Part shown: positions 1-14,060 of the stretch, in pieces
Numbering within the stretch: the first letter of the stretch is position 1
How the letters are laid out: every line of letters starts with the position of its first letter
Assembly (NCBI GenBank): GCA_002371295.1
Contig: DFGZ01000243.1
Coordinates: 1-14,060 of the forward strand
Length of the DNA: 14,060 bases
Origin: Oribacterium sp. UBA3737
Lineage (GTDB): Bacteria; Bacillota_A; Clostridia; Lachnospirales; Lachnospiraceae
Direction: 5' to 3'
The notes under the pieces: model-generated
What the model was told of the DNA's origin: nothing
The model's input: only the letters and a program-made list of their open reading frames with translations
The model's database searches: none
Made by a program: the position numbers and the translations under genes

Positions 1-34
1 ATCAGTATCTTTCTATCTCAGGTATATTAATGGC

Positions 35-63: not shown

Positions 64-76
64 TAAAATCAACATA

Positions 77-90: not shown

Positions 91-107
91 CTAATGGACG
101 GACGGAA

Positions 108-137
108 ATAATGCACAACTTTTTGGTTGTGCATTAT
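108..137 (+). repeat. Inverted repeat (hairpin) between the two operators
   Basis: Two perfect 12-base arms (108-119 and 126-137) flank a 6-nt loop. The hairpin would form in the 5' leader of the operon mRNA. No T-run follows on either strand, so it is not a standard intrinsic terminator. It may stabilise the mRNA 5' end or be a binding site for a third factor. Confidence 0.6.
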
Positions 138-150
138 AAAAGGCAACATA

Positions 151-164
151 TGGAACGGGTTCCA
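151..164 (+). promoter_or_regulatory. LacI-family operator, copy 2
   Basis: Identical to the operator at 77-90 and lying inside the exact 21-bp repeat copy at 145-165. The centre-to-centre distance is 74 bp, close to seven turns of B-DNA, so both sites face the same side of the helix. Together with the upstream copy this arrangement would allow repressor looping. Confidence 0.75.
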
Positions 165-211
165 CAAATGACGTTACTACTGTATATGTAATGCAGAGAA
201 AGGGAGATTCA

Positions 212-1570
212 ATGAAAAAGAACCTATTAACCATTTTTTCAACAGTTATGGCCGTATCACTTACAGCATGCGGCGGAGCCTCAACTACAGGAACAGTGCC
301 GGATCAGTCAACCCAGGCGGAATCAAAGACGGCAGACGGAGCAGCGAGCCTGACAATCTGGAGCCCTACAGACAAGGAATCAGTGGAAAAGTGGTGGGCA
401 GAAAAGATTGATGAGTGGAACAAGGCAAATCCTGATATACAGGTAAAAAGAGATGCTATAGATCGTTCTGATTCATACGCTTATGACAATAAAGTTGCAA
501 CAGCTGTCACATCAAATTCTCTTCCGGACATTTTCTTCGTGGACGGGCCTCAGGTTTCCTACTATGCAGCAAATGAAATCATAGTGCCTTTGGATAAATA
601 CTTTACGGCAGAAGATCTAAAGGATTTTGTTCCTTCAACAGTTGCCCAGTGCACATATGACGGAAAGACTTATGCCATTTCCGCAACGGAATCCTCTGTT
701 GCCTTCTACTATAACAAGGATATGCTCAGAGAAGCAGGAATCGATGTAGATGACATCGATAAGAGAACTGTTGATAACCCTATTACATGGTCAGAGCTTC
801 GTAATATAGCTGAAAAGTGTACAACTGAGGATCATGTGGGAACACATATCATCATGGATCATGGTGAAGGAATTCCTTATGCACTGGAACCTATGTATAT
901 CTCACAGGGTAAAGACTATATCAATGAAACAGGAGATACGGCAGAGGGCTATGTGAACAGTGATGAAGCAGTAAAGACTAGCGCTTTCCTTGCACAGCTT
1001 ATTGCAGACGGATATGCAAACATTGAGCCCATAACAGATGAGTTCCTTAACAAGGCATGTGCGACCATGCTGGGCGGTTCATGGGATGTGGCAACATTAA
1101 CAGAGAATGCCGACTTTGACTGGGGAGTAACCTACTATCCGGTTTCTGATGATACAAAGAAGGCAGTTTCACCCTGCGGCGACTGGTCAGCAGCTATTTC
1201 AAAGGATTGCAAGAATGTTGACGCTGCAGGAAAGTTCTTACAGTGGCTTATGAATACAGACAATGTTGCTACATATGCAGCAGCGATTGCAAAGCCTGCC
1301 ACCAGAAACTCTTCTTATGATACCGAGTCAATGGCTGCTTATAAGGATTACCCGCTTTCACTGATGGTTGAGCAGCTCAATCATACTGCAGTACCTCGTC
1401 CACGTACTCCGTCCTATGCGTCTTTCTCAACAAAATATGCAGAGGCGATGTCAAACATCTTCTCAGCAGCGGCATCAGATCATAAGGTTGATGATGCTTA
1501 CATCAAGGAGCAGCTTGACAGTGTAGCAGCAGATTTTGCCGAGGACTACAATACTTACTATGCAAAATGA
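212..1570 (+). CDS. ABC sugar transporter, lipoprotein solute-binding protein
   Basis: Extracytoplasmic binding protein of a CUT1-type sugar ABC importer, 452 aa. The N-terminus has Lys residues, a hydrophobic stretch and a lipobox LTAC with the lipidated Cys at residue 20, then a polar linker before the mature domain that begins with LTIWSP, typical of family-1 sugar-binding proteins. I chose ATG 212 rather than the in-frame ATG 191 because AGGGAG (201-206) sits 5 nt before 212 and the signal peptide then starts with MKK. It is the first gene of an operon with two permeases, a LacI regulator and a GH32 enzyme. The likely ligand is therefore sucrose or short fructo-oligosaccharides; the family is clear but the ligand is inferred from context. 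Confidence 0.9.
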   Translation: MKKNLLTIFSTVMAVSLTACGGASTTGTVPDQSTQAESKTADGAASLTIWSPTDKESVEKWWAEKIDEWNKANPDIQVKRDAIDRSDSYAYDNKVATAVTSNSLPDIFFVDGPQVSYYAANEIIVPLDKYFTAEDLKDFVPSTVAQCTYDGKTYAISATESSVAFYYNKDMLREAGIDVDDIDKRTVDNPITWSELRNIAEKCTTEDHVGTHIIMDHGEGIPYALEPMYISQGKDYINETGDTAEGYVNSDEAVKTSAFLAQLIADGYANIEPITDEFLNKACATMLGGSWDVATLTENADFDWGVTYYPVSDDTKKAVSPCGDWSAAISKDCKNVDAAGKFLQWLMNTDNVATYAAAIAKPATRNSSYDTESMAAYKDYPLSLMVEQLNHTAVPRPRTPSYASFSTKYAEAMSNIFSAAASDHKVDDAYIKEQLDSVAADFAEDYNTYYAK

Positions 1571-1598
1571 TGTTCAAGCATCAGATATGTAAAGAATG

Positions 1599-1624
1599 GC
1601 AGTCGGCGCTTATGCGCTGACTGC
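1599..1624 (+). other. Intercistronic stem-loop after the binding-protein gene
   Basis: An 11-bp stem (1599-1609 with 1614-1624, one G-U pair) closes a TTAT tetraloop in the 71-bp gap between the binding protein and the first permease. No T-run follows, so full termination is unlikely. Hairpins here commonly protect the upstream message from 3' decay and keep binding protein in excess over permease; that role is inferred. Confidence 0.6.
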
Positions 1625-1641
1625 ATAAGAGGAACTATACC

Positions 1642-2535
1642 ATGATAAAGGTAAATAATGTAAAAAACAGAAATGAAGGTACTTCAGCCGCAGTGCTTGT
1701 AACACCATCGGTTTTTCTGCTCATAGCATTTCTTCTTGTACCGATGATATACACCGTGTATTTTTCGGTCTTCCGGTATCAGATAATGCGACCGCAGGAC
1801 ATGACTTTCATAAATTTTGAAAACTACATAAAGCTTTTTCAGGACAAAGATTTTTGGCAGGCGTTTAAAAATACAATTTACTTTACGGTAGTTGTAGTTC
1901 CTGTACAGACTGCTCTGGCTTTAGGACTTGCACTTCTGGTTGCGGAGAAAACACGCGGAGTTGCTTTTTTCAGAACCATGTACTTTGCTCCACAGCTGAC
2001 ATCGATGGTCGTCATATCTATACTGTGGACCATCCTGTATAATTCAAATCCTTCCACAGGGCTCATAAATTCACTGCTTAAAAGTCTGGGGATGGAGAGC
2101 ATCAATTTCCTGAGCAACAAAAAGACTGCCATGAATTCAATCATTTTCATGTCTGCATGGCAGGGAGCAGGATACCAGATGATGATCTTCATCGCAGGAC
2201 TTCAGGCTATTCCGGCATCACAGTATGAAGCTGCAGCGGTTGACGGTGCGACAGCATTTCAGAAACTTGTCTACATCACATTACCGGGGCTGAAATCCAC
2301 CATAAAATATGTTGTGATGATAACTATGATACAGGCTATGAAGCTCTTCACACAGCCTTATGTCATGACTAAGGGTGGACCGCAGAACTCTACAAAAACA
2401 CTGGTCTACTATATCTATACCGAAGGTTTTCAGGAAGGTGATTTTGGATATGCCTGCTCTGCGGCAGCTGTGTTTTTCATCATCGTTGTAACGATGTCAC
2501 TTGTTATGAAACGTCTGACCATGCCGAAAGACTGA
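1642..2535 (+). CDS. ABC sugar transporter permease (MalF/UgpA type)
   Basis: Inner-membrane permease of the CUT1 family, 297 aa, about six membrane segments, the first at residues 16-40. The EAA loop that contacts the ATPase is visible at about 196-216 (EAAAVDGA, then an LPGL ending). AAGAGGA (1627-1633) lies 8 nt before the ATG. It would pair with the next permease to form the channel for the sugar delivered by the upstream lipoprotein. No ATP-binding subunit is encoded nearby, which is common for CUT1 systems in Firmicutes that share one MsmX/MsmK ATPase. Confidence 0.92.
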   Translation: MIKVNNVKNRNEGTSAAVLVTPSVFLLIAFLLVPMIYTVYFSVFRYQIMRPQDMTFINFENYIKLFQDKDFWQAFKNTIYFTVVVVPVQTALALGLALLVAEKTRGVAFFRTMYFAPQLTSMVVISILWTILYNSNPSTGLINSLLKSLGMESINFLSNKKTAMNSIIFMSAWQGAGYQMMIFIAGLQAIPASQYEAAAVDGATAFQKLVYITLPGLKSTIKYVVMITMIQAMKLFTQPYVMTKGGPQNSTKTLVYYIYTEGFQEGDFGYACSAAAVFFIIVVTMSLVMKRLTMPKD

Positions 2536-2555
2536 GAGACTGAAAGGGGTATTTC

Positions 2556-3413
2556 ATGAGCAGCAGAACCAGTTCGATTGAAAGACAAAAATTAATAGGA
2601 AAAATTCTATTTTATCTTGGGAATTTTATCATCGGAATAATCTTTGTTTCACCTCTGCTTTGGATGTTATGTGCTTCACTGAAACCTGAGGCGGAGATAT
2701 TTGCCAATATGAATTCCATCAGGACATTTATACCTACACACGCATCCTTCAACAATTATATAGAGGTATTTACACGACTTAATATCCTGAATGTTCTGAA
2801 AAATACATTTTGCTATATCGCTTTGATCCTTGTGGGAGACCTGTTACTGAATTCACTTTGCGGATATGCACTTGCAAAATTTCATTTTAAGGGTAAGGGA
2901 CTTATACTTAATCTGGTCATAGCACTTATGGTACTTCCCATGGAGGCTATCATGCTTCCTCTCTACATCGAGATGTCACAGCTTGGCTGGGTTAATACGT
3001 TACAGGCTTTGGTTATCCCCTTCATCCCGAAGTGCTTTTCGATATATATGTTCAGACAGTTCTTTTCCGATATTCCGGATGAGTTGATCGAAGCTGCATA
3101 CATCGACGGAAGTGGTCATATAAGAACCTTTTTCAGCATAGTGGTTCCTATTTCAAAAACGGTTTATGCGACAGTATTTATCCTTGATTTTGTAGCGCAC
3201 TGGAATGATTTTATGTGGCCGTTTCTTGTTATGACCGGAGAGGAAAAGAGAACTATCCAGCTGGCTGTTCAGGTGTTCTTCGGAACACAGCCTGTTCATT
3301 ACAGCGCTATCATGGCGGCTCTTGTCATTTCTGCAGTTCCCATGATTTTGATGTTCATATTTATGCAGAAATACTATGTGGAAGGTATCGCTTCCTCCGG
3401 AATAAAGGGATGA
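2556..3413 (+). CDS. ABC sugar transporter permease (MalG/UgpE type)
   Basis: Second CUT1 permease, 285 aa, beginning 20 nt after the first permease stop with AAAGGGG before the ATG. Membrane segments begin at about residue 17, and the EAA loop is at about 179-200 (EAAYIDGSG followed by VVPIS). The C-terminal ending (YYVEGIASSGIKG) is typical of MalG-like proteins. It forms a heterodimer with the preceding permease. Substrate is inferred from the GH32 gene downstream. Confidence 0.92.
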   Translation: MSSRTSSIERQKLIGKILFYLGNFIIGIIFVSPLLWMLCASLKPEAEIFANMNSIRTFIPTHASFNNYIEVFTRLNILNVLKNTFCYIALILVGDLLLNSLCGYALAKFHFKGKGLILNLVIALMVLPMEAIMLPLYIEMSQLGWVNTLQALVIPFIPKCFSIYMFRQFFSDIPDELIEAAYIDGSGHIRTFFSIVVPISKTVYATVFILDFVAHWNDFMWPFLVMTGEEKRTIQLAVQVFFGTQPVHYSAIMAALVISAVPMILMFIFMQKYYVEGIASSGIKG

Positions 3414-3507
3414 TAAGATGCAGGTTGATGATGCGCAGGGAATATGCAAAAATATGTGTGTGCGTTTTTTACCATAAATCAGGACGGAAGAAAGGAATCA
3501 AAGATCT

Positions 3508-4503
3508 ATGGCAACCATACAGGAAGTGGCAAAGCTGGCAGGTGTCGGAGTTGCCACAGTATCACGAGTCATTAATGATACAGGCTACGTAAAGGAAGAG
3601 ACAAGAGAGCGTATAGAAAAAGCTATTCGTGAGCTTGATTATACGCCCAATGCTGTGGCCAGAAATCTGTATCGTAATAAAAATGGTATAATTGCTGTTA
3701 TCATCCCTGAGATAGATCACCCGTTTTTTTCCGCCTTTGTCAATGAGCTTGAGGAGATATTTGCAGAGCATAAATACAGGATGATGCTTTGCAATACCTG
3801 GTTTAAAGAGAATTACGAGTATCAGTATCTGAAGATGCTTAAGGAAAAACTGGTGGATGGGATAGTTGTTGCGTCTCACACACTGGATCTGGAACGGTAT
3901 GCCACTATTGAACGTCCGGTTGTAGCACTGGACAGGGATCTGGGAGATATGATCCCCTGCGTCAGATCGGATCATGAAGCCGGAGGAAGGATGGCTGCAG
4001 AGGAACTGATAGCGGCAGGCTGCAGAAAAGTAGCTCAATTCAGAAATGAAGAAAATACCTCGGCACCTTTTGTCATAAGGCATGATACTTTTGAAAAGGT
4101 ACTGAGAGACAGGGGCGTCGAGGTGGTCAATGTCTACACCAGGTGGAACAGCCTGGGCTATGAGTATAACAAAATTCTGTGTAAGGACTTTTTTGCAACG
4201 CACGGTGATATAGACGGAGTGTTTGGAACAGATCTTATAGCACTTAATATCGAAAAGGAAGCCCTTAAGTCAGGAAAGCGTATACCGGAGGATCTGAAGA
4301 TAGTTTCCTATGACGGAACAGATATCATAGAGACGTCATATCCGACCATAACTGTTATAGAGCAGCCCATCAAGGAGCTTGCAAGAGAGTGCTTCAAACA
4401 GCTTGAGATGAGAATAGAAGGAAAGGATCCGGAGAAAAAAGTCATTACATTGCCTGTAAAATTAAAGAGGGGAATGTCGACGGAAGTGAAGGGAATAGTA
4501 TGA
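3508..4503 (+). CDS. LacI/GalR-family transcriptional regulator
   Basis: Repressor of 331 aa. The helix-turn-helix is at residues 3-22 (TIQEVAKLAGV, then VATVSRVIN), followed by the hinge helix PNAVARNL (47-54) that inserts into the operator minor groove. From about residue 60 it has the periplasmic-binding-protein-like effector domain. It lies inside the fructoside operon: 94 bp after the second permease and overlapping the GH32 start by 4 bp (ATGA). AAAGGA at 3491-3496 is a slightly distant ribosome site. The twin palindromes at 77-90 and 151-164 are its probable operators, giving autoregulation. The effector is probably sucrose, fructose or a phosphorylated product, which cannot be read from sequence. 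Confidence 0.9.
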   Translation: MATIQEVAKLAGVGVATVSRVINDTGYVKEETRERIEKAIRELDYTPNAVARNLYRNKNGIIAVIIPEIDHPFFSAFVNELEEIFAEHKYRMMLCNTWFKENYEYQYLKMLKEKLVDGIVVASHTLDLERYATIERPVVALDRDLGDMIPCVRSDHEAGGRMAAEELIAAGCRKVAQFRNEENTSAPFVIRHDTFEKVLRDRGVEVVNVYTRWNSLGYEYNKILCKDFFATHGDIDGVFGTDLIALNIEKEALKSGKRIPEDLKIVSYDGTDIIETSYPTITVIEQPIKELARECFKQLEMRIEGKDPEKKVITLPVKLKRGMSTEVKGIV

Positions 4504-5981
4504 TTAGTGAATTACTGAAAAAAGCCAGAGAACAGGAGACTGAAACAGGAAGATATATAGATAAAGGTGAAAGACCGGTATATCACCTTTCGCCATGGGC
4601 AGGATGGATGAACGATCCTAACGGATTCTCCATTTACAAAGGGATGATCCATCAGTTTTACCAGTATTATCCATATAAAACAGAGTGGGGTCCTATGCAT
4701 TGGGGACACGCGGTATCAAAGGACTATGTGAAGTGGGATTATCTCCCTGCGGCTATTGCTCCGGATGAAAGTTATGATAATTTCGGATGCTTTTCAGGAG
4801 GAGCGGTTGAGACAAAAGAAGGAAAGCAGCTTTTGGTATATACCGGAGTAAAATCGGAAGTAAAAGAAGGAAAAGAAATCATACGACAGACGCAGTGCCT
4901 GGCTTTCGGAGATGGGGCTGATTATGAAAAATTTCAGCAGAATCCCGTAATAGATCATAAAAGTATTCCGGAGGGCTGGAGCCCTGTGGATTTCAGAGAT
5001 CCTAAGATATGGTTTGATGAAGAGGATGACTGCTACTATATAGTGGCCGGAAACAGAACCGATGACGGAAGCGGTGCCATACTTCTGTTTGAAAGCAAGG
5101 ACGGAAAAGAGTGGAAGTTTGTAACTGTACTTGACCGCTCCAGAAATGAATACGGAAAGATGTGGGAGTGTCCTGACTTTTTTGAACTTGACGGTAAACA
5201 CTTTATATTTACCTCTCCTCAGTTCATGCAGGCCAGAACACTGGAATTTCACAATGGAAACGGTAATATCATGATTGTGGGAAGCTATGACAGGAAAACC
5301 CACAGCTTTGTGCGTGAGAGTGTATCTGCCATAGATTACGGTCTGGATTTCTATGCCATGCAGACACTTAAATCCGATGATGGCCGAAGGATCATGACAG
5401 CATGGATGCAGTCATGGGAGTCCTGTAAGGCTGTGCCGGAGGGACAGAAGTGGTTCGGTCAGATGATACTTCCGAGAGAACTGAGCTTTAAAAACGGGAG
5501 ACTCTATCAGAGACCGGTGAGAGAGATAGAGAATTACAGAAAGGAGCATGTCTCCTACAGGGATGTGGCTCTGTTTAATGAGACAACTCTTCCGAGGGTT
5601 TCCGGTAAAGTATGTGATATGGAGCTTGAGCTTGTTCCAAACGGGCAGAGTTTTGGTGAATTTAAGATCTCGTTCCATGCTGATTCTGATTATCATACTG
5701 ATTTTATTTACAGGCCGGAAGAAGGTATAGCTATTTTTGACAGAACTTATTCCGGATTCCCTTACGATATAAATAACAAAAGAAAGTTTCCTGTGAGGTA
5801 TAATGCCGGCAAGCTTAAACTTCGTGTACTCCTGGACAGATTTTCTGCGGAAATTTTCGTCAATGACGGAGAAAGTGTATGTTCATCAACTGTATATGCT
5901 CCTGAAGAAGCCGAAAAAATTAGTTTTTCAGCCAAAGGAAGCGCAGTGATGAATCTCGATTTCTGGAAACTGGAAAATTGA
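4500..5981 (+). CDS. GH32 beta-fructosidase (sucrose/fructo-oligosaccharide hydrolase)
   Basis: Glycoside hydrolase family 32 enzyme, 493 aa, releasing terminal fructose from sucrose or short fructans. All three catalytic signatures are present: WMNDPNG at 36-42 (nucleophile Asp39), FRDP at 165-168 (transition-state Asp167) and ECP at 223-225 (acid/base Glu223). The five-bladed propeller is followed by the beta-sandwich domain from about residue 350. There is no signal peptide, so it is cytoplasmic and acts on sugar imported by the ABC system. Because that importer delivers unphosphorylated sugar, a sucrose or FOS hydrolase is more likely than a sucrose-6-phosphate hydrolase, although the two cannot be separated by motif alone. 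Translation is coupled to the regulator through an ATGA overlap. Confidence 0.92.
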   Translation: MISELLKKAREQETETGRYIDKGERPVYHLSPWAGWMNDPNGFSIYKGMIHQFYQYYPYKTEWGPMHWGHAVSKDYVKWDYLPAAIAPDESYDNFGCFSGGAVETKEGKQLLVYTGVKSEVKEGKEIIRQTQCLAFGDGADYEKFQQNPVIDHKSIPEGWSPVDFRDPKIWFDEEDDCYYIVAGNRTDDGSGAILLFESKDGKEWKFVTVLDRSRNEYGKMWECPDFFELDGKHFIFTSPQFMQARTLEFHNGNGNIMIVGSYDRKTHSFVRESVSAIDYGLDFYAMQTLKSDDGRRIMTAWMQSWESCKAVPEGQKWFGQMILPRELSFKNGRLYQRPVREIENYRKEHVSYRDVALFNETTLPRVSGKVCDMELELVPNGQSFGEFKISFHADSDYHTDFIYRPEEGIAIFDRTYSGFPYDINNKRKFPVRYNAGKLKLRVLLDRFSAEIFVNDGESVCSSTVYAPEEAEKISFSAKGSAVMNLDFWKLEN

Positions 5982-6074
5982 CTCTGCTTTGATACTCACT
6001 GATGACGCCATAACACATTCTTGTGCGAAGAGCTTGTGATAAGATACTTGACATTCAGATATAAATAGATGCGA

Positions 6075-6094
6075 TTCCAACATTAATGTGGGAA
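6075..6094 (+). promoter_or_regulatory. 20-bp imperfect palindrome
   Basis: TTCC at 6075 and GGAA at 6094 bracket a perfect inner palindrome, ACATTAATGT (6080-6089), with only one mismatched pair (6079/6090). This is the size and form of a dimeric repressor site. As RNA it could form an eight-position stem (one A-G mismatch) with a TTAA loop. Its position between the GH32 stop and the terminator-like hairpin gives no clear target gene. Confidence 0.35.
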
Positions 6095-6107
6095 GTACGA
6101 CAGTGAA

Positions 6108-6166
6108 ACCACCCTTGATATTTCAGGAGGTCTTTATGACCATGGAAGTTAAGGGTGGTATTTTTG
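6108..6166 (+). terminator. Terminator-like hairpin after the GH32 gene
   Basis: Nine-base arms ACCACCCTT (6108-6116) and AAGGGTGGT (6151-6159) pair perfectly, followed by ATTTTTG. This fits the end of the fructoside operon. The 34-nt loop is unusually long and contains a nested GGTC/GACC hairpin (6129-6132 with 6138-6141) and a perfect AGGAGG-N5-ATG translation start, so it may be more than a terminator. Confidence 0.55.
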
Positions 6167-6228
6167 TGCGATTTTTACTGATGACGCCGCTGCACATATG
6201 CCACAAAAACGCAATCTTAAATAGCTGA
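6136..6228 (+). CDS. Possible 30-codon small ORF
   Basis: ATG 6136 is preceded by AGGAGG (6125-6130) at an ideal 5-nt spacing. The frame runs 30 codons to TGA 6226-6228, starting MTMEVKGGIF and ending with a short hydrophobic then polar tail. Its first codons overlap the 3' arm of the terminator-like hairpin, so the same bases would serve as both hairpin and coding sequence. No known family is recognised. The good ribosome site is the only positive evidence; it may be chance or a decayed gene. Confidence 0.2.
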   Translation: MTMEVKGGIFVRFLLMTPLHICHKNAILNS

Positions 6229-6309
6229 CAATTTAGATAAAATTAAGTCCATGGTTGATATATAATTCACAAAAATCATAAAGTGATGTACTTATGGTCG
6301 ATTATGCTC

Positions 6310-6337
6310 TTTACATTTGTGCAATACTAACTATAAT
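6310..6337 (+). promoter_or_regulatory. Promoter of the sulfoquinovose operon
   Basis: TTTACA (6310-6315) and a consensus TATAAT (6332-6337) are separated by 16 bp. The predicted start is near 6344, giving a leader of about 115 nt before the transaldolase gene. It is the best promoter match in the 476-bp gap. Confidence 0.7.
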
Positions 6338-6339
6338 AC

Positions 6340-6366
6340 TAATTAATTAATTGAATTAACTAATTA
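6340..6366 (+). promoter_or_regulatory. 27-bp palindrome over the transcription start (candidate operator)
   Basis: Arms of 13 bp (6340-6352 and 6354-6366) around a central G pair at 12 of 13 positions; the sequence is built from TTAATTAA-type units. It begins 2 bp after the -10 box and covers the predicted start point, the classic place for a repressor site. The cognate regulator is not identifiable, since no regulator gene lies in the sulfoquinovose cluster within this window. Low complexity means chance is possible. Confidence 0.45.
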
Positions 6367-6393
6367 ATGCAGCTTAAATAAAGCAGCAGGTGA

Positions 6394-6434
6394 GACAGAG
6401 CCGAACCATTAAAAACGGTTTTAATGGGACAGAG
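6394..6434 (+). other. Leader hairpin flanked by GACAGAG repeats
   Basis: A perfect 9-bp stem, CCATTAAAA (6406-6414) with TTTTAATGG (6419-6427), closes an ACGG tetraloop. The heptamer GACAGAG occurs just before it (6394-6400) and just after it (6428-6434). The structure lies about 20 nt upstream of the transaldolase initiation codon, outside its ribosome site. It matches no riboswitch class I know. Confidence 0.5.
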
Positions 6435-6457
6435 TTCTCGTCAAAGAGGAGGAAGTA

Positions 6458-7144
6458 ATGAAGTTCTTTTTAGACAGTGCAAAATTAGATGAGATTGACT
6501 ATGCGTACAAGACATTTGGAATCGATGGTGTAACAACAAATCCAAAGCATATCATGCTTAGCGGAAAGCCATTCGTAACAGCTATTACAGACATCGCAAA
6601 CTGGATCAAGGAAAACGGCCTTGAGGGTATCGACAAGTTCCCTGTATCCATCGAAATCAACCCGCATCTTGACAAGACAGAGGACATGGTTGAAGAGGCA
6701 AGAAAGTATGCCAAGGTTTCTCCAAACTTTGCAATCAAGATTCCTGCAACAGAGGCAGGTGTTGCTGCAGCAAGACAGCTTGAGAAGGAAGGCATCAGAA
6801 CAAACCTTACACTTGTATTTGCTCCGGCACAGGCAATCTTCGCAGCAAAGAACGGTTCACTTTTTGTTTCACCTTTCATCGGATGGAAAGAGGACAACGG
6901 CGAGGACTGCAAGCAGTACATTAAGGACATCGTTGATATCTACAAGAACTACGGTTTCTACGGAAAGACACAGATCATCTGTGCAGCACTTCGTTCACCT
7001 AAGCAGATGGTTGACTGTGCGGTAGCAGGTGCAGACATCATCACAGCAGGACTTGCAATTTACAAGAGCGCTCAGCACCACGCTTACACAACACAGGGTA
7101 TCGGAACATTCTGTGATGCATGGGACAACACAAAGACAGAGTGA
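6458..7144 (+). CDS. sftT: Sulfofructose transaldolase (sulfo-TAL)
   Basis: Small class-I transaldolase, 228 aa. Seen: FLDSA at 4-8, TTNP at 26-29, the Schiff-base lysine Lys94 in FAIKIPAT, NLTLVF at 106-111 and SPFIGW at 128-133. In phosphate-using transaldolases the last motif reads SPFVGR, and that Arg (Arg181 in E. coli TalB) binds the sugar phosphate; here it is Trp133. That change and the neighbours point to 6-deoxy-6-sulfofructose as donor: the dihydroxyacetone unit goes to glyceraldehyde 3-phosphate, giving fructose 6-phosphate and releasing sulfolactaldehyde. A strong AGGAGG (6447-6452) lies 5 nt before the ATG. Codon use is strongly biased, suggesting high expression. An ordinary transaldolase or fructose-6-phosphate aldolase is the alternative, but the pathway context argues against it. 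Confidence 0.85.
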   Translation: MKFFLDSAKLDEIDYAYKTFGIDGVTTNPKHIMLSGKPFVTAITDIANWIKENGLEGIDKFPVSIEINPHLDKTEDMVEEARKYAKVSPNFAIKIPATEAGVAAARQLEKEGIRTNLTLVFAPAQAIFAAKNGSLFVSPFIGWKEDNGEDCKQYIKDIVDIYKNYGFYGKTQIICAALRSPKQMVDCAVAGADIITAGLAIYKSAQHHAYTTQGIGTFCDAWDNTKTE

Positions 7145-7173
7145 TTTCATAAAGTTAAGATCAGAGAACAGCG

Positions 7174-7217
7174 CCTGTCCATCGGCATGAAGCGAATAAC
7201 TGTTGCTGATGGACAGG
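7174..7217 (+). other. Intercistronic stem-loop after the transaldolase gene
   Basis: A 14-bp stem (7174-7187 with 7204-7217, one G-U pair) encloses a 16-nt loop in the 155-bp gap before the reductase gene. It is followed by A-rich rather than T-rich sequence, so it is not a good terminator. It may stabilise the transaldolase message or mark a processing point; no clear new promoter follows it. Confidence 0.6.
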
Positions 7218-7299
7218 AAATATAAACAATTAGACATTATCATCGGGAAAATCAAAAATTAGAAGATCTGATCATAAAAACAGGTCCTTGGAGGAAGTA

Positions 7300-8163
7300 A
7301 TGAAGATTGGTTTTATCGGACTCGGAATAATGGGCGAGTCAATGTGTGCAAATATAGTAAAGAAGCATGACGATACGGTTTACTGTTCAGATATGGTAAA
7401 GGAAAAGGTTGAGGAGCTTGTAAAGCTCGGTGCAGTTGCTGCGGAAAACAATGTTGACCTCGCTGAGAAAGCGGATGTGATCATTTCCATGGTTCCCAAG
7501 TCGGAGCATTCAAGATCGGTTTATACCGAGATCCTTCCAAAACTCGGAAAAGGCAAGATCTGTATCGATATGAGTACCATCGATCCAAGCGTATCGGTTG
7601 AGATCGCAAAGATGGTCAAGGAGACAGGTGCTCAGTTCGCAGATGCTCCGGTTGTAAAGTCAAAGCCTGCAGCTATAGCAGGAAAGCTCGGAATCTACGT
7701 TGGATGCGACGAGGAGCTTTATGACACAGTTCGTCCGATTCTTGCATACATGGGTGAGAACATCATCCGCATGGGTGAGAACGGAACAGGTATCACCATG
7801 AAGATCCTTCATAACGCTCTCGTTGGTCAGATCCAGAACGGCGTAAATGAGGTTTCAAATCTTGCAGCAGTCTGCGGCATAGACATTCAGACCTTCGCAA
7901 CAGCCATCTCTTATGGCGGCGGACAGAACTTCTATCTGGACAGCAAGAAGGATGTTATAGAGAAGAACGATTTCACAACAGCATTCTCAGTTGAGAATAT
8001 GTACAAGGATGTGAATATCTGCAAGAAGCTTGCAGAGGAGAAGGGACTTCCGATGCCGGGCGAGATGAATGTTGTAAGAGTTTACGACAAGGCTATGGAA
8101 GCAGGATATGCAAAGGAAGACTTCTCAGCCACCATCAAGGTAGTAAGAGCTGAAAAGGCATAA
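7300..8163 (+). CDS. Sulfolactaldehyde reductase (YihU-like, 3-hydroxyisobutyrate dehydrogenase family)
   Basis: NAD(P)-dependent beta-hydroxyacid dehydrogenase, 287 aa. Seen: Rossmann GFIGLGIMG (4-12), MSTIDPS (91-97), DAPV (115-118) and catalytic Lys168 in the GTGITMK region. The usual SGG after DAPV is replaced by VKSKPAA. In E. coli YihU, which reduces sulfolactaldehyde to DHPS, the aligned position is Arg123, recalled to contact the sulfonate; here it is Lys120. This supports reduction of sulfolactaldehyde to DHPS, which would also reoxidise NADH in a fermenter. I chose ATG 7300 over the in-frame TTG 7288 because GGAGGA (7290-7295) lies just upstream of 7300 and would be inside the longer version. 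A reductase for tartronate semialdehyde or similar is the alternative. Confidence 0.82.
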   Translation: MKIGFIGLGIMGESMCANIVKKHDDTVYCSDMVKEKVEELVKLGAVAAENNVDLAEKADVIISMVPKSEHSRSVYTEILPKLGKGKICIDMSTIDPSVSVEIAKMVKETGAQFADAPVVKSKPAAIAGKLGIYVGCDEELYDTVRPILAYMGENIIRMGENGTGITMKILHNALVGQIQNGVNEVSNLAAVCGIDIQTFATAISYGGGQNFYLDSKKDVIEKNDFTTAFSVENMYKDVNICKKLAEEKGLPMPGEMNVVRVYDKAMEAGYAKEDFSATIKVVRAEKA

Positions 8164-8192
8164 AGAGATTTGACTTTATAAGGGGAATGGAG

Positions 8193-8247
8193 GATGAGGG
8201 TCACTGACCGGCCCGGGAAAATGGCGACATGGGAATGACCGCTCATC
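8193..8247 (+). other. Long-range hairpin in the leader of the isomerase gene
   Basis: GATGAGGGTCA (8193-8203) pairs with TGACC-g-CTCATC (8236-8247), 11 bp with one bulged base, directly upstream of the DUF4867 start. The 5' arm adjoins a GGAGG (8189-8193). The same stretch contains a short frame with a plausible ribosome site (ATG 8194 to TGA 8236-8238, 14 codons), overlapped by another tiny frame ending at 8252. The isomerase start itself has no Shine-Dalgarno, so this structure and these mini-frames may set its translation. Confidence 0.4.
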
Positions 8248-8258
8248 TATGAAATATT

Positions 8259-8930
8259 ATGGAGCTTTTAAAGCATTTAAATGAAGTAAATGATGTTTCC
8301 ATCAAGTCAGTGCTTGATCATGAAGCATTCAAGACTTACGGACGTGTGGTCACAGGATATGATTTTTCCGAAGTGGTGGATTACATGGAAAAGGAAACGC
8401 CCATCCCTGAACAGGGCAATGTCTATGTAGCCTCGGTTCCGGAGATGGAGAAGCTTTCCGTAAAGGATAAGGTAGAAAACCTGATTTACGGAGGCATGCC
8501 GATCGAGATCGGATACTGCAACGGAAGAAACACAACATACAACGGTTTCGAATATCACAAGGGCAGTGAGATAAACATTGCCGTCACAGACTTCATGCTG
8601 TGTCTCGGCCATGTCTGGGACATAAAGGACAATACTTACGACATAAAGGATGTGCAGGTATTTTTCGTACCGAAGGGCACAGTGATAGAGATGTATGAGA
8701 CTACACTTCATCTGTCACCATGCAGAGTGACTGATGAAGGATTCAAGGGAGTTGTTATCCTTCCGAAAGGAACCAATACACCACTTGAAAAGCTTGCTCC
8801 TGTAGATAAGGAAAGCGAGCTTCTCCTCCAGAGGAATAAATGGGTGATCTGTCATCCTGAGAGAGAGCCGCTGGTAAAGCAGGGAGCTGTAACAGGAGTC
8901 ATCGGACCAAATAAGGAGCTTCATTATTGA
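8259..8930 (+). CDS. sftI: DUF4867 protein, sulfoquinovose isomerase
   Basis: 223 aa protein of the DUF4867 family, recalled as the SQ-to-sulfofructose isomerase of transaldolase-type sulfoglycolysis. Seen: the N-terminal block MELLKHLNEV with YGRVVTGYD, a cupin-like first motif around 98-118 (Glu98, His100, Glu104, His118) and a second around 138-151 (VPKG, then His151). These His/Glu residues are candidate metal ligands; the cupin reading is my inference. It belongs to no classical aldose isomerase family. The in-frame stop at 8250-8252 forces the start to 8259 or later, and ATG 8259 gives the complete N-terminal block. No Shine-Dalgarno precedes it, unlike most genes here. It ends 1 nt before the sulfoquinovosidase ATG. 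DUF4867 members also occur in other sugar loci, so the substrate call rests on the neighbours. Confidence 0.82.
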   Translation: MELLKHLNEVNDVSIKSVLDHEAFKTYGRVVTGYDFSEVVDYMEKETPIPEQGNVYVASVPEMEKLSVKDKVENLIYGGMPIEIGYCNGRNTTYNGFEYHKGSEINIAVTDFMLCLGHVWDIKDNTYDIKDVQVFFVPKGTVIEMYETTLHLSPCRVTDEGFKGVVILPKGTNTPLEKLAPVDKESELLLQRNKWVICHPEREPLVKQGAVTGVIGPNKELHY

Positions 8931-8931
8931 C

Positions 8932-10932
8932 ATGGAATTACAGGTTATTGGTCAGACATTAAAACTTACAGAGGATGACAGGATCATCCTTTCGGCGGAT
9001 TCGGATAAGCCTATGATCTTCGTGGGCCACGGAAAAGAATCCGTTGATATGTACAGAGGCAACTTCAAGATCGAGGATTATGTGGAGGATAAGGTGCCTT
9101 TGAAGCTTACAGGTTCAGAGGAAAAGGACGGAACAACAGTTCTTGATTTTGAGGGAAAGATAACTGCCACGGTTACTGTAAATGGTGAATGTGCGGAAAT
9201 TAAATTCCGGAATAATGATCCTGCAGTAAACAGATTCTGGTTAAGAGTTGCAGCTGATAAGGATGAACACATTTACGGCTGCGGAGAGCAGATGTCGTAT
9301 TTCGATCTCCGGGGGAGACATTTTCCTCTCTGGACATCTGAGCCGGGAGTAGGCAGAGACAAAACAACATACGTTACATGGCGATCCGATGTTGAGAACA
9401 AGGCAGGAGGTGATTACTACAATACGAATTATCCTGAGCCTACTTTCGTTTCATCAAAGAGATATTATCTCCATGTTGATTCTACAGCTTATGCGGATTT
9501 TGATTTCAGAAATGAGGAATTCCACGAGCTTGAGATCTGGGAGGTTCCTGCTTCTGTCCGTATAGAGGCGGCAAAGGATTTTCAGGAGCTTCTTTTAAAG
9601 GAAACGGCTTATTTCGGCAGACAGCCTGAGCTTCCGGACTGGGTATATAACGGACTTATCTTCGGTGTTCAGGGTGGAAATGAAAGATCCTTCGGTCTTG
9701 CTGAAAAGATTCGTGAAAAGGGCGTAAAGCTTTCAGGAATCTGGTGTCAGGACTGGTGCGGCAAGAGAGTTACCAGCTTCGGAAAGAGACTTCAGTGGGA
9801 CTGGCATTATCATAAAGAGATGTATCCGGACCTTCCCGAGAAGATAGCTGAGCTTCACAAAAAGGGAGTCAGATTCCTCAGTTATGTGAATCCCTATCTT
9901 GTAAATGACGGTGAGCTGTTTAAGGAAGGCGAAGAAAAGGGATACTTCGCAAAGCGCCATGACGGTACCACCTATCTTGTGGACTTCGGCGAGTTCTACT
10001 GCGGTGCGGTTGACCTCACAAATCCTGAGGCCTTCGAGTGGTTCAAGGGAATCATCAAAAAGTACAGCATTGATATAGGAATAGACGGCTGGATGGCGGA
10101 TTTCGGTGAATATCTTCCTACTGACGATATCGTACTCTACAGCGGAAAGTCAGCCATGGTTGAGCATAATCATTGGCCGCTTCTCTGGGCTAAATGTAAC
10201 TATGAAGCTGTAAAGGAGTCAGGCAATCTTGGAAAGATCGTTTACTTCATGAGAGCGGGTGCCAACGGAAGCCAGAAGTACTGCACACTGCTCTGGGCAG
10301 GTGACCAGTCGGTGGATTTCTCAAGGCATGACGGTCTCTGCACAGTTATCTCGGCGGCTCTCGGAACCGGTATGATGGGATGCGGAATCAGCCACAGCGA
10401 TATAGGTGGATATACTTCACTTTTCGGTAATGTAAGAACCAAGGAAGTATTCATGAGATGGGCCGAGATGGCAGCATTTACACCGGTCATGAGAACCCAT
10501 GAGGGCAATCGTCCCGATGACTGCTACCAGTTCTATGATGACGAGGACGGAATCGTGAGGATGGCGCGGCTTGTAGACATTTACACCATGATGTCGCCAT
10601 ATATCAGGGATGCGGTAAAGGAAAATCATGAAAAGGGAATGCCGGTTCAGAGACCGCTTTTCCTTCATTACGAAGAAGAAAGGTGCTATACGGAACAGTT
10701 CGAATATCTTCTCGGAAGGGATGTGCTGGTGGCACCGGTTTATACAGCAGGGCAGACAGAGCGGGAGGTATATCTTCCGGATGATGAGTGGATCCACCTC
10801 TGGACAGGACGAAGCTACGGAGCGGGTGTCAATGTCGTAGAAGCAGAGCTTGGTGACACTCCTGTATTTTACAGAAAGTCTTCAAAGTACAGAGAATTGT
10901 TCGAGAGTATACGTGCTAAATATGGAAAATAA
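8932..10932 (+). CDS. sftG: Sulfoquinovosidase (GH31)
   Basis: GH31 alpha-glycosidase, 666 aa, close to the 678 aa of E. coli YihQ. It frees SQ from alpha-SQ glycosides such as SQ-glycerol. The nucleophile is Asp390 in GWMADFGE and the acid/base is Asp458 in AGDQS; their 68-residue spacing nearly equals YihQ Asp405/Asp472. The sulfonate-binding triad of YihQ (Gln288, Arg301, Trp304) is reproduced with identical spacing as Gln273, Arg286 and Trp289 in the segment WCQDWCG...TSFGKRLQW. Ordinary GH31 alpha-glucosidases and xylosidases lack this triad. There is no signal peptide, so the SQ glycoside must first be imported. Start ATG 8932 follows the isomerase stop by 1 nt, with AAGGAG at 8913-8918, suggesting translational coupling. 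Confidence 0.93.
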   Translation: MELQVIGQTLKLTEDDRIILSADSDKPMIFVGHGKESVDMYRGNFKIEDYVEDKVPLKLTGSEEKDGTTVLDFEGKITATVTVNGECAEIKFRNNDPAVNRFWLRVAADKDEHIYGCGEQMSYFDLRGRHFPLWTSEPGVGRDKTTYVTWRSDVENKAGGDYYNTNYPEPTFVSSKRYYLHVDSTAYADFDFRNEEFHELEIWEVPASVRIEAAKDFQELLLKETAYFGRQPELPDWVYNGLIFGVQGGNERSFGLAEKIREKGVKLSGIWCQDWCGKRVTSFGKRLQWDWHYHKEMYPDLPEKIAELHKKGVRFLSYVNPYLVNDGELFKEGEEKGYFAKRHDGTTYLVDFGEFYCGAVDLTNPEAFEWFKGIIKKYSIDIGIDGWMADFGEYLPTDDIVLYSGKSAMVEHNHWPLLWAKCNYEAVKESGNLGKIVYFMRAGANGSQKYCTLLWAGDQSVDFSRHDGLCTVISAALGTGMMGCGISHSDIGGYTSLFGNVRTKEVFMRWAEMAAFTPVMRTHEGNRPDDCYQFYDDEDGIVRMARLVDIYTMMSPYIRDAVKENHEKGMPVQRPLFLHYEEERCYTEQFEYLLGRDVLVAPVYTAGQTEREVYLPDDEWIHLWTGRSYGAGVNVVEAELGDTPVFYRKSSKYRELFESIRAKYGK

Positions 10933-10938
10933 AAACTG

Positions 10939-11760
10939 ATGTTAAATACAAATTACATTTTATTCTTTCTGGCCATATTTGTGACCCATATCATGCATGG
11001 GGTCACAGGATTTGCGGGAACTGTGCTGGCGATGCCCTTCGGGCTTATGCTGGTGGGATATCCGGTGGCAAAACCTGTTTTGAATGTACTGGGGATGGCA
11101 AGCGGCATCTATGTGTTCCTTGGAAACAGAAAGCACGTAGTATGGAAAGAACTATGGAAGATAGTCGGGATCATGGGGGGCGGAATACTTCTCGGTATTC
11201 TCATTAAGGACAGGCTTCTCGGTAAAGAAAAGATGCTTTATCTTTTCCTCGGTATCTTCGTTATAGCTGTTTCGGTACACGGACTTTTTAAGGAACTTTC
11301 AGTCGGAAGGACCGGAAAGAAAGAAGAGGACAAATTAAAAGAGGATGCTTTCACAGGGGATGTAAAAGCAGGGGAAGCTTATTCGGAGATTTCCGAAAAA
11401 GGAAAAATCAGGGACAGACTTATATATCTGCTCCTTCCGATAGCCGGAATAGTCCATGGAATATTTGTAAGCGGGGGTCCGCTTCTCATCAGTTATCTCA
11501 CAAAAAGGCTGCCTGATAAGAATCAGTTCAGAACGACCATTTCCACGGTCTGGATATTTCTTAACAGTATGGTTCTTATCGATGACATAAGGTCGGGCTA
11601 CTGGAATCAGTCACTTGTGATCAGTGCTCTTGTGGCAGCACCGTTCTTGTTCTCGGGACTTAAGATAGGTTCTGTCCTCTATAAGAGGATGAGCCAGAGA
11701 ACATTCATGATACTTAGCTATTTACTGCTTCTTATCATGGGCATAAAGCTGCTTCTCTAA
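10939..11760 (+). CDS. sftA: TauE/SafE-family sulfonate exporter
   Basis: Membrane protein of the TauE/SafE/YfcA family, 273 aa. The family's internal duplication is visible: HGVTGFAG at 20-27 and VHGIFVSGG at 172-180. Two hydrophobic halves (about 5-118 and 161-273) are joined by a highly charged loop (about 119-160) rich in Lys and Glu. It starts 6 nt after the sulfoquinovosidase stop with only a weak ribosome site, so it is probably translationally coupled. In sulfoglycolytic operons this family is the assumed exporter of the C3 sulfonate; with the reductase present the cargo here would be DHPS. Direction and substrate are inferred from context. Confidence 0.85.
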   Translation: MLNTNYILFFLAIFVTHIMHGVTGFAGTVLAMPFGLMLVGYPVAKPVLNVLGMASGIYVFLGNRKHVVWKELWKIVGIMGGGILLGILIKDRLLGKEKMLYLFLGIFVIAVSVHGLFKELSVGRTGKKEEDKLKEDAFTGDVKAGEAYSEISEKGKIRDRLIYLLLPIAGIVHGIFVSGGPLLISYLTKRLPDKNQFRTTISTVWIFLNSMVLIDDIRSGYWNQSLVISALVAAPFLFSGLKIGSVLYKRMSQRTFMILSYLLLLIMGIKLLL

Positions 11761-11840
11761 GCGGCATGGAAACAGAATTATGGGTCGAAAAGAGACCACG
11801 TAAAAAATAAACACATGATAGTAAACAGGAGGAAGTTACT

Positions 11841-12953
11841 ATGAGAAAACAGTTATTGGCAGGAATTCTTGCAACAGCAATGGCAGCAACACTTGCAGCA
11901 TGCGGTGGATCAGCACCGGCTACAACAACAGCAGCTGCAGCAGCCGAGACAAAGGCTGAGGCCAAGACAGAGGCAGCAGCTGCTGAGACAAAGGCTGAAG
12001 AGAATAAGACTGCAGGAAGCGGCCAGACAGTTAAGGTTATCTGCCCTTACGGCGTAGGCGGAACAGCAGATATCATCGCAAGAAAGTTCGCAGAGGTCGC
12101 AACAAAGACTCATCCTGAGTATAACTTCATCGTTGAGCAGCAGACAGGCGGTGACGGATTTGCAGCAGCAACAGCATTTACACAGGAAGACCCAAGCACA
12201 ACAGATCTTCTGGTTTACGGATACGGTGTAGCTTATCGTCATGATCTCGGAAAGCAGTTCAATACTGAGGTCGTAGAGTTCGACAGAAGTGAGATCCTTC
12301 CGCTTGCAACAGTAGATGACAGAACATGGATCCTTTACACAACACCTGATCAGACACTTGCAGGACTTATTGAGAAGTCAAAGACAGGCGGACTTAAGAT
12401 GTCCGGTGGAAACCCTCTTTCAGATCCACATCTTGCTTTAGGTTCACTTCTTGCTCAGGAAGGCGGCAAGGTAATGGTAGTACCTTATGACGGTGGTGCT
12501 GCTCAGAAGAAGGGTCTTACAGACGGTGAGGTTGATTGTTTCGTAGGTACAACACAGGCTGCTCAGGAAGACGTTGAGGCAGGTAACCTCATTCCTGTAC
12601 TTGCATTCTCAGACAAGGCATTCACAGGCTTCAAGGGACCTCAGGGTGATATAACAGTTCCTTCACTTGCAGGCGATGCAAAGTCAGCTGATCTTGATGC
12701 ATCAAAGGATTACACAAAGTCAATTCTTCCTGCAGGCGGTTCTCTTGCAACACGTAAGGGCGCTTCTCAGGAGTGGCAGGATGCAGTTGTACAGGTTGCC
12801 AAGGACGTTTGGGCAACAGATGAGTACAAGGATTTCATTGCAAGCATCATGCTTAACGACACAGAGATTTACGGACAGGATGATGTTCAGCACTATGAGG
12901 ATGCTTGTAAGGCAGCATTAGAGGCATTCAAGCTTCTCAGCGGTCAGAACTAA
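11841..12953 (+). CDS. tctC: TctC-family lipoprotein of a tripartite tricarboxylate transporter
   Basis: Solute-binding protein, 370 aa, with lipobox LAAC and lipidated Cys21. A low-complexity Ala/Thr/Glu/Lys linker (26-58, with ETKAE-type repeats) tethers the mature domain. Family landmarks are the first ligand loop PYGVGGTAD (69-77) and the second VPYDGGAAQK (214-223). The usual ENRPGAGG stretch is replaced by EQQTGGDG (99-106), so the binding pocket is divergent. AGGAGG (11827-11832) lies 8 nt before the ATG and codon bias is strong, suggesting abundant protein. It sits 80 bp after the sulfonate exporter and ahead of tctB and tctA. An SQ or SQ-glycerol ligand is my inference; the family normally binds carboxylates. 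Confidence 0.88.
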   Translation: MRKQLLAGILATAMAATLAACGGSAPATTTAAAAAETKAEAKTEAAAAETKAEENKTAGSGQTVKVICPYGVGGTADIIARKFAEVATKTHPEYNFIVEQQTGGDGFAAATAFTQEDPSTTDLLVYGYGVAYRHDLGKQFNTEVVEFDRSEILPLATVDDRTWILYTTPDQTLAGLIEKSKTGGLKMSGGNPLSDPHLALGSLLAQEGGKVMVVPYDGGAAQKKGLTDGEVDCFVGTTQAAQEDVEAGNLIPVLAFSDKAFTGFKGPQGDITVPSLAGDAKSADLDASKDYTKSILPAGGSLATRKGASQEWQDAVVQVAKDVWATDEYKDFIASIMLNDTEIYGQDDVQHYEDACKAALEAFKLLSGQN

Positions 12954-13031
12954 GAAATGTGACCCGGAAAGGTACACAGTTACCGATCAGTTGTTCATTG
13001 AATTATTAATAAGTTAAAAACTTAAGAGCTG

Positions 13032-13066
13032 CCCGGCATTGCCTTAGTGCAGTGCCGGGTATTTTG
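13032..13066 (+). terminator. Attenuator-like hairpin between tctC and tctB
   Basis: An 11-bp GC-rich stem (13032-13042 with 13049-13059, one wobble pair) closes a CTTAGT loop and is followed by TATTTTGG. The T-tract is short, so partial termination is expected, letting some transcripts continue into tctB and tctA. This would give more binding protein than permease, as is usual for binding-protein-dependent systems. Confidence 0.65.
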
Positions 13067-13088
13067 GTCTATTTTTGGAGATTTTCTT

Positions 13089-13565
13089 ATGAAAAAAACA
13101 ATTAAAATCAAAACCAACCTTCTGGCAGGTATCGTAATGGGACTGTTTTCAGCCATCATGCTTCTGATAATGCCTACACAGGTACGTCTTCCCATGTGGG
13201 ATTCAGGAGCACCGAGCCCGCGTATCATACCCGGCATATGTCTCGTCGGGATACTTATCTGCTCGATTATTCTTATAGTTCAGAGCCTGGTGTTTCATAA
13301 AGAGCATATTTATGAGTTCGTCTGGGAAAATGAAAGAAAAGAGTTACTGCTCATCGGTGCACTGGTAGTGTTTGTTGCACTTACAAAGATGCTTGGATTT
13401 ATTCCTGCCGGAATACTTATCTTTTGTGCCATTCAATGGTTTGAAGGCGAAAGAAAGCCGCTCATTTACATTTATACACTGGCTATGGTAGTGATAGTTT
13501 ACTTCCTTTTCCAGAATGTATTTCATGTGGATCTTCCGGCCGGAATACTCAAGGGAATAATCTAA
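13089..13565 (+). CDS. tctB: TctB-family small permease subunit
   Basis: Small membrane subunit of the tripartite tricarboxylate transporter, 158 aa with about four membrane segments (roughly 11-29, 47-67, 85-115 and 128-147). SPRIIPG (43-49) and the C-terminal LPAGIL ending are typical of TctB. An in-frame ATG at 13047 lies within the attenuator hairpin; ATG 13089 is preferred because GGAG (13077-13080) lies 8 nt upstream and the protein then begins MKKTIKIK. It is followed by tctA, 12 nt after its stop. Confidence 0.82.
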   Translation: MKKTIKIKTNLLAGIVMGLFSAIMLLIMPTQVRLPMWDSGAPSPRIIPGICLVGILICSIILIVQSLVFHKEHIYEFVWENERKELLLIGALVVFVALTKMLGFIPAGILIFCAIQWFEGERKPLIYIYTLAMVVIVYFLFQNVFHVDLPAGILKGII

Positions 13566-13577
13566 AGAGGTATGGAT

Positions 13578-14060
13578 ATGGGTTATTTTGATTATATTTC
13601 TTCCGCATTTGCTGCGGTATTTACATTAGGAAACCTGGTATTTATATTCGGTGGAATGCTCATGGGCATGGTCATCGGCTGCATACCGGGTCTGAGCGTT
13701 ACACTTGGAATCATCCTTTTCCTTCCGCTCACATACGGGATCAAGGATCCAAGTACAGCAATTATTTCACTCCTTGCGGTTTACGTAGGCGGAATGTATG
13801 GCGGTTCCATAAGTGCAATCACACTGAACACACCGGGAACCAATTCGGCTATCGCCACAACATTTGACGGTTATCCGCTGGCTAAGAAGGGAAGAGTTCT
13901 TCAGGCGCTTGATACTTCTCTTTTTGCGTCATCCTTCGGTGGTATCATCGGAGCACTTTTACTTCTTGTTCTTGCGGCTCCTATAGCAGCATTTGTTTCA
14001 AAGTTCACTTCGGTTGAATATTTTTCGATGGCTATTCTCGGAATCTCACTTCTTGCGGGT
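13578..14060 (+). CDS. tctA: TctA-family large permease subunit (3' truncated by window end)
   Basis: First 161 codons of the large membrane subunit, a protein normally near 500 aa; the frame is open to the last base. TctA signatures are clear: GMVIGCIPGLSVTLG near the N-terminus, then GGMYGGSI, NTPGT and FDGYPLAKKG. AAAGAGG (13564-13570) sits 7 nt before ATG 13578 and only 1 nt before the in-frame ATG 13572, so 13578 is the better start. With TctC and TctB it forms an ion-driven importer. Truncation is due to the window edge, not to damage. Confidence 0.9.
   Translation, partial: MGYFDYISSAFAAVFTLGNLVFIFGGMLMGMVIGCIPGLSVTLGIILFLPLTYGIKDPSTAIISLLAVYVGGMYGGSISAITLNTPGTNSAIATTFDGYPLAKKGRVLQALDTSLFASSFGGIIGALLLLVLAAPIAAFVSKFTSVEYFSMAILGISLLAG

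Follow-up and report, generated by a model that had tools for sequence, protein, structure and literature searches.

A probable sulfo-transaldolase operon for sulfoquinovose in an Oribacterium contig, with a candidate tripartite tricarboxylate importer

We analysed a 14,060-nucleotide stretch of DNA (hereafter the window: contig DFGZ01000243.1 of assembly GCA_002371295.1, positions 1 to 14,060 of the forward strand) from Oribacterium sp. UBA3737, a member of the Lachnospiraceae. From position 6458 to the end of the window a same-strand run of genes comprises sftT, sftR, sftX, sftG, a TauE-type gene, tctC, tctB and a tctA that is cut by the window end (Table 1). The first five of these had been put forward, in a sequence-only reading, as a complete operon for the degradation of the plant sulfosugar sulfoquinovose (SQ) through the sulfoglycolytic transaldolase (sulfo-TAL, Sft) pathway. 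Profile scans bore out the coordinates and families of these five consecutive plus-strand open reading frames (ORFs; 6458-11760), among them the TauE-family gene (10939-11760), which matches PF01925 and keeps its position in the six closest loci (L023-L028; loci are denoted by L and genomes by G). The operon end proposed at 11760 has to be moved, since tctC, tctB and tctA continue on the same strand. In all six loci the order of the five-gene block is kept, which is beyond chance, and tctA is followed by sftI and then by a ROK regulator. The closest of them, L023-L026, belong to Lachnospiraceae bacterium JC7 and Oribacterium spp., with an SftX that is 96-98% identical to that of the window over 223 amino acids. 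For sftR the start at ATG 7303 is better than the one at TTG 7288, and tctB was taken to start at ATG 13089. NCBIfam gave no family for the DUF4867, TauE and TctC proteins or for the tctA fragment.

Table 1. Genes and candidate control elements of the sft region, in window coordinates
Feature	Coordinates	Strand	Support
Candidate sigma-70 promoter of the sft operon (TTTACA-16-TATAAT)	6310..6337	+	11/12 consensus letters
AT-rich imperfect inverted repeat, candidate operator	6339..6366	+	just after the -10 box
sftT, sulfofructose transaldolase	6458..7144	+	PF00923 TAL_FSA, 154 bits
sftR, predicted 3-sulfolactaldehyde reductase, HIBADH family	7303..8163	+	PF03446 + PF14833
sftX/sqvB, DUF4867 cupin metalloprotein	8259..8930	+	PF16161, 262 bits
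sftG, GH31 sulfoquinovosidase, YihQ type	8932..10932	+	NCBIfam PRK10426, 976 bits (cut-off 553)
TauE/SafE-type membrane protein, probable DHPS exporter	10939..11760	+	PF01925, 77.7 bits
tctC, lipoprotein solute-binding protein of TTT, putative SQ/SQ-glycerol receptor	11841..12953	+	
Strong hairpin in the tctC-tctB gap	13030..13061	+	13 pairs, 8 GC
tctB, small TTT membrane subunit	13089..13565	+	PF07331, 67.7 bits (ORF from GTG 13047)
tctA, large TTT membrane subunit, cut by the window end	13572..14060	+	

The best solved relatives of SftT are 8bc3 (named BmSF-TAL), 8bc4 and 8bc2, at 274-284 bits, and the next transaldolase follows at 154 bits. In a tree of 36 rows, for which 20 of 61 SftT rows were used, the window protein, 20 SQ-cluster rows and BmSF-TAL stood apart from 14 other transaldolases with a support of 100/100; for this outgroup 15 of 30 transaldolase loci were offered, 14 of which gave a row, the others having scored like SftT or been cut. 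The branches of BmSF-TAL and of one outgroup row are long. Lys94, which we take to be the Schiff-base lysine, is conserved. The closest solved protein to the window DUF4867 protein is 9gyy (240 bits), which is SqvB of Bacillus megaterium (PMC11968277; published work is cited by PMC number and, throughout, for the sections consulted). The metal ligands given there (Glu97, His99, Glu103 and His150) match Glu98, His100, Glu104 and His151 of SftX, conserved in at least 95% of 81 rows. In the DUF4867 tree (38 rows) the 24 SQ-cluster rows, including that of the window, form one set (100/100) next to BmSqvB, although the split is imperfect, with two of the 13 other rows (L004, L018) on the same side. 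A grouping of either protein with non-sulfosugar relatives, which the sequence-only reading had named as grounds for its own rejection, is thus not what the trees give: SftT goes with BmSF-TAL, and SftX with 23 SQ-cluster rows.

The GH31 enzyme had been called a sulfoquinovosidase (SQase), and this assignment stands. SftG passes the cut-off of PRK10426, which we take to be the YihQ model, is 51% identical to YihQ of E. coli, and has as its best solved relative 6pnr (1124 bits), the proven SQase of E. rectale. Its residues Q247, Q273, R286, W289, Y494, D390 and D458 are the counterparts of Q262, Q288, R301, W304, Y508, D405 and D472 of YihQ, and we take Q262, Q288, R301, W304, Y508 and D472 to be sulfonate-binding or catalytic residues of SQases. 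D405 is named as an SQase residue in PMC11968277. On reading alone, no signal peptide is apparent at the N-terminus of SftG; the intact glycoside must therefore cross the membrane for the enzyme to act on it.

The new element of the cluster is the carrier that would bring it in. TctA, TctB and TctC are all present together and make up a tripartite tricarboxylate transporter (TTT); the fragment of tctA encodes a protein 97% identical to TctA of L023 over 163 amino acids, and the full L023 protein matches PF01970 at 437 bits. We surveyed 80 loci, namely the best 80 of 191 confirmed DUF4867 matches, many of them on short contigs, with simple ORF picks and phmmer labels as gene calls and a Pfam check of the carrier families for chosen members. 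A YihQ-like SftG occurs in 27 of the loci, and a more distant GH31 accounts for 46 rows. TTT genes accompany SftG in 22 of the 27 (20 with TctA; L029 and L051 with TctC at a contig edge), and the remaining SftG loci hold an SSF carrier (three), a glycoside-pentoside-hexuronide (GPH) carrier alone (L052) or none (L049, a 9.7-kb contig). The TctC alignment comprised 20 of the 22 TctC rows and the window, the cut rows of L029 and L051 being left out. GPH carriers, which share 25-27% identity with E. coli YihO (a putative SQ transporter by annotation), were found in 40 of the 80 loci (38 without the minus-strand genes of L032 and L068), and in 36 of these with the distant GH31.

SftT is present in 15 of the 20 TctA loci. 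Instead of SftT and SftR, L098 combines the TTT block with sqwI (PF02502), transketolase halves (PF00456; PF02779/PF02780) and an iron-containing alcohol dehydrogenase, that is, a sulfo-transketolase set. What the two pathways have in common is SQ, its glycosides and sulfofructose, so that a transporter shared by both most simply handles SQ or an SQ-glycoside; the TTT of L098 speaks for a substrate that lies before the two pathways part.

We also searched an order-wide sample of 392 genomes, scoring the best few candidates per genome (five for TctC, three for SftG). The TctC profile found 11 genomes at E <1e-20, and because all of these matches lie below 1e-75 the family is discrete at this threshold. 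SftG exceeded 700 bits in 17 genomes, a line that was set after the scores were known (727 versus 583, with a second copy in G243 at 650), and TctC and SftG occurred together in ten (Fisher p ~1e-14, uncorrected for kinship). The remaining TctC genome is G210, with a completeness of 76% and a TctC that is truncated at the edge of a contig. None of the 18 genomes with only a weaker GH31 (<600 bits) has TctC. Nine of the 11 TctC genes adjoin SftG or SftI in several gene orders, the TTT being placed before sftT (L152), before sftG (L153) or after sftG (L145-L147) with unchanged neighbours. As for the seven SftG genomes without TctC, G420 has an SSF relative and four have relatives of ATP-binding cassette (ABC) permeases in the cluster, where the label ABC means similarity to the two permeases of the window.

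Taken together, gene families, conserved residues, tree positions, synteny and the fold of TctC make it likely that the window carries a sulfo-TAL operon for SQ, from an Oribacterium-like member of the Lachnospiraceae, in which the TTT imports the substrate and the TauE protein exports 2,3-dihydroxypropane-1-sulfonate (DHPS). The pathway, its reductase branch and DHPS as the likely product had been named before, and sequence, trees and synteny support them. The pathway is already known and the cluster is one more carrier of it; what is undescribed, within the literature searched, is the TTT importer variant. The chemistry of the pathway is taken from the literature, and we infer the TTT substrate, the direction of TauE, the operator and the product in this organism. 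The TTT would import SQ or SQ-glycerol, as suggested by synteny and by its standing where other clusters have other carriers. More broadly, we regard it as reasonably probable that this is a discrete TTT clade dedicated to the uptake of SQ or its glycerol glycoside in anaerobic Clostridia of the gut, which would add a fourth interchangeable class of importer to the ABC, GPH and SSF carriers of sulfoglycolysis, and that the importer class tracks the type of SQase (TTT with the Arg-type SftG, GPH mostly with the Gln-variant GH31).

The proposed sequence of events would be as follows. TctCBA would bind SQ or SQ-glycerol outside the cell and bring it in, where cytosolic SftG would hydrolyse the glycoside and SftX may assist in opening the ring or in anomerisation. 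The gene for SftI probably lies immediately beyond the window, and the enzyme would make 6-deoxy-6-sulfofructose; SftT would then put the C3 part of sulfofructose on glyceraldehyde-3-phosphate, giving fructose-6-phosphate and 3-sulfolactaldehyde, which SftR would reduce to DHPS for export by the TauE protein. The reaction of SftR finds some support in the alignment with YihU: Lys167 aligns with Lys171 and Lys119 with Arg123, a residue that presumably has a functional role, and both lysines of SftR are invariant in 66 rows.

Several observations weigh against this proposal. SftR is a distant relative of E. coli YihU (31% identity) and scores 146 bits against the 348-bit cut-off of the model for YihU-type sulfolactaldehyde reductases; its reaction therefore rests on context and the two lysines, and of the YihU-like reductase that had been proposed the HIBADH family, the position and the invariant lysines hold, whereas the score stays below the YihU-type model. 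TauE is absent from seven of the 20 TctA loci, and only three of these seven have a DASS carrier. The survey loci were chosen by DUF4867 similarity, so that clusters without this gene are unsampled, and 16 of the 80 showed no TTT, GPH or SSF carrier. In twelve of these the core genes have less than 3 kb of flank to one side or to both, but L073, L079, L080 and L102 have long flanks and yet no TTT, GPH or SSF gene was found in them, so that the rule of one importer per cluster is not exceptionless. In the stretches examined, TctC lies away from SQ genes in G085 (where SftG is on another contig) and G210, and no importer of the SSF, ABC or TTT classes was found near SftG in G178 and G236. Finally, the TTT substrates given in the sections consulted of PMC5812351 are mostly carboxylates plus sulfolactate, with no sugar sulfonate.

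The most serious competing explanation, which we consider unlikely, keeps the pathway but has the TTT move its product (DHPS, sulfolactate or some other C3 sulfonate) or a carboxylate that has nothing to do with it, with the SQ carrier encoded elsewhere. For sulfolactate, import by TTT systems is known or proposed (SlcHFG; PMC10507020, PMC5812351), and this is the compound with which PMC10507020 is concerned in its treatment of TTT, and the two SftG genomes and several loci without an importer nearby mean that importers can lie elsewhere. Product transport fits poorly, however, with a TTT in the sulfo-transketolase cluster L098, whose pathway yields isethionate (PMC12890257), and the TTT occupies the place that SSF, GPH or ABC genes have in other SftG clusters. 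Among the best 120 of 358 TctC homologues a few carried a name ('tripartite tricarboxylate transporter substrate-binding protein'), and these names pointed to no function. Among the matches listed, the open PMC literature gave no link between TTT and SQ uptake, though the founding 2020 paper or the Bacillus paper may mention TTT.

Far less probable is the version of the sequence-only reading, in which the five genes suffice and the DUF4867 protein serves as the SQ isomerase. Most such clusters do hold a DUF4867 gene (PMC9594981), on the constancy of which our 80 loci, selected by DUF4867, are uninformative; the protein is a metalloprotein, and the published tests, in the sections consulted, leave room for an isomerase activity of its own. 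Against this, PMC9594981 assigns the step from SQ to sulfofructose in the sulfo-TAL pathway to SqvD/SftI (PF02952) and describes SqvB (DUF4867) as a putative mutarotase, and PMC11968277 reports neither detectable mutarotation nor kinase activity for SftX and leaves its role undetermined; mutarotation or ring opening has been proposed for it. We therefore rejected DUF4867 as the isomerase. Each of the six closest loci has a PF02952 gene immediately downstream of tctA; the one in L023 encodes 446 amino acids and scores 34 bits against a cut-off of 29.3. SftI directly follows TctA in 19 of the 19 TctA loci that hold sftI (20 TctA loci in all), and a PF02952 gene of some kind was present in 19 of 19 genome handles tested, which are 15 distinct genomes (G001/G065, G012/G062, G016/G063 and G017/G064 being duplicates by equal coordinates). 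Ten window proteins were scanned (the two ABC permeases, tctA and small or antisense ORFs lay outside the scan) and none matched PF02952. Since sftI follows tctA in the relatives, the isomerase gene very probably lies just past base 14060, and the operon is probably complete even though the window, contrary to the earlier description, is not. A substrate other than SQ, i.e. another sulfonated or acidic sugar, is similarly improbable. SQ is a predicted substrate of the window proteins, and this leaves some room for such a sugar, but SftG is closest to the proven SQase 6pnr and keeps the SQase residues named above, including the arginine at the YihQ R301 position (present in 27 of 27 SftG rows), and Enterocloster clostridioformis, which degrades SQ, has the same gene order in its locus L048.

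How SQ enters fermenting bacteria is poorly settled, and the literature consulted names SftA or ABC as 'most likely'. With its defined gene family, a TTT receptor would offer a marker gene and a direct, testable entry point to the question; if true, the proposal would bring sulfosugars into a transporter family centred on carboxylates. Relabelling the DUF4867 protein from isomerase to SftX matters when the completeness of the pathway is called from gene lists.

Returning to the export step, a DASS/CitMHS-type carrier was found in 11 of the 80 loci, none of them with TauE, a mutual exclusion that hints at both being exporters of the sulfonate. No other member of the operon is as poorly conserved as the TauE-type protein (66-85% in L023-L027 versus 99% for SftT), which has a charged insertion mid-way. 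Judging by first residues, lookalikes of a glycyl-radical enzyme, its activase and an iron-containing alcohol dehydrogenase lie inside the SQ clusters of L152 (2253-7059) and L156 (1836-6425); we liken them to HpfGHD, which converts DHPS to 3-hydroxypropanesulfonate.

The GPH-type SQ clusters carry a distinct GH31 (e.g. L053 6423-8417, L036 3261-5276). At the position of YihQ Arg301 this distant GH31 has glutamine in 44 of 46 aligned rows and a gap in the other two; the catalytic Asp pair and the Tyr are kept in all rows and the Trp in 44. It may represent a second clade of SQases that binds the sulfonate differently, or it may act on another substrate. L035, from a metagenome-assembled genome of Pseudobutyrivibrio ruminis, is the only locus with TTT and GPH together, and its double set consists of SftG paired with TctCBA and the distant GH31 accompanied by GPH and DASS. 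Genes for an iron-containing alcohol dehydrogenase and dihydroxyacetone kinase adjoin the SQ genes in L052, L054, L081 and L098 (families scanned in L052), perhaps for glycerol released from SQ-glycerol.

Candidate control elements accompany the operon. The promoter-like stretch at 6310-6337 is the best of nine scan matches, against a shuffle mean of 12.9, so that matches are not enriched; it is conserved in the Oribacterium loci. The repeat at 6339-6366, to which the ROK regulator may perhaps bind, lies upstream of sftT in each relative, with 0-3 mismatches in L023-L027 and six in L028. In L023-L028 the tctC-tctB gap folds into a hairpin comparable to that at 13030-13061, which possibly stabilises or terminates the mRNA portion for tctC and might shift the balance towards the receptor over the membrane parts. 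A split between the TauE gene and tctC by a terminator was also considered and rejected, as none was found in this gap on the plus strand. Further upstream (191-5981) lies a block with an ABC sugar transporter, a LacI regulator and a GH32 enzyme of the scrB family (358.8 bits, cut-off 356.4). It precedes sftT in L025 and L026, and no match was found upstream of sftT in L023 and L024; we therefore rejected it as part of the SQ system and take it as a separate module of the sucrose/fructan type.

Several known systems can be set beside the window. One is E. clostridioformis, of which strain YL32 converts SQ to DHPS at about 1:1 (PMC12330013). L048, from strain AGR2157, to which the gene order refers, has the same ten genes in the same order, sftT-sftR-sftX-sftG-TauE-tctC-tctB-tctA-sftI-ROK, with SftX 69% and TctC 68% identical to those of the window, and the sulfo-TAL/DHPS assignment fits YL32 in that the same species has the same gene order. 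The section of PMC12330013 consulted differs in naming SftA as the importer of YL32, with neither a locus tag nor a TTT. The sft cluster of Eubacterium (Agathobacter) rectale (PMC11968277) shares SftT, SftR, SftX, SftG, TauE and SftI with the window, but L155 has an SSF-family relative in the cluster and no TTT; G420/L155 is probably E. rectale, its SftG scoring 1123.6 bits against 1123.9 for 6pnr. The sqv/sft cluster of Bacillus/Priestia megaterium provides the solved BmSF-TAL and BmSqvB, homologous to the transaldolase and the DUF4867 protein of the window, and differs in that the window encodes a reductase. The sulfo-transketolase cluster L098, which L054 resembles, has the SftX-SftG-TauE-TctCBA-SftI block in common with the window, with sqwGH transketolase cleavage in place of SftT/SftR (families scanned in L098 only). 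SlcHFG of Roseovarius, Chromohalobacter and, putatively, Taurinivorans is likewise a TTT with a sulfonated substrate, sulfolactate (PMC10507020, PMC5812351), a C3 sulfonate and not the sugar sulfonate that we propose for the transporter of the window.

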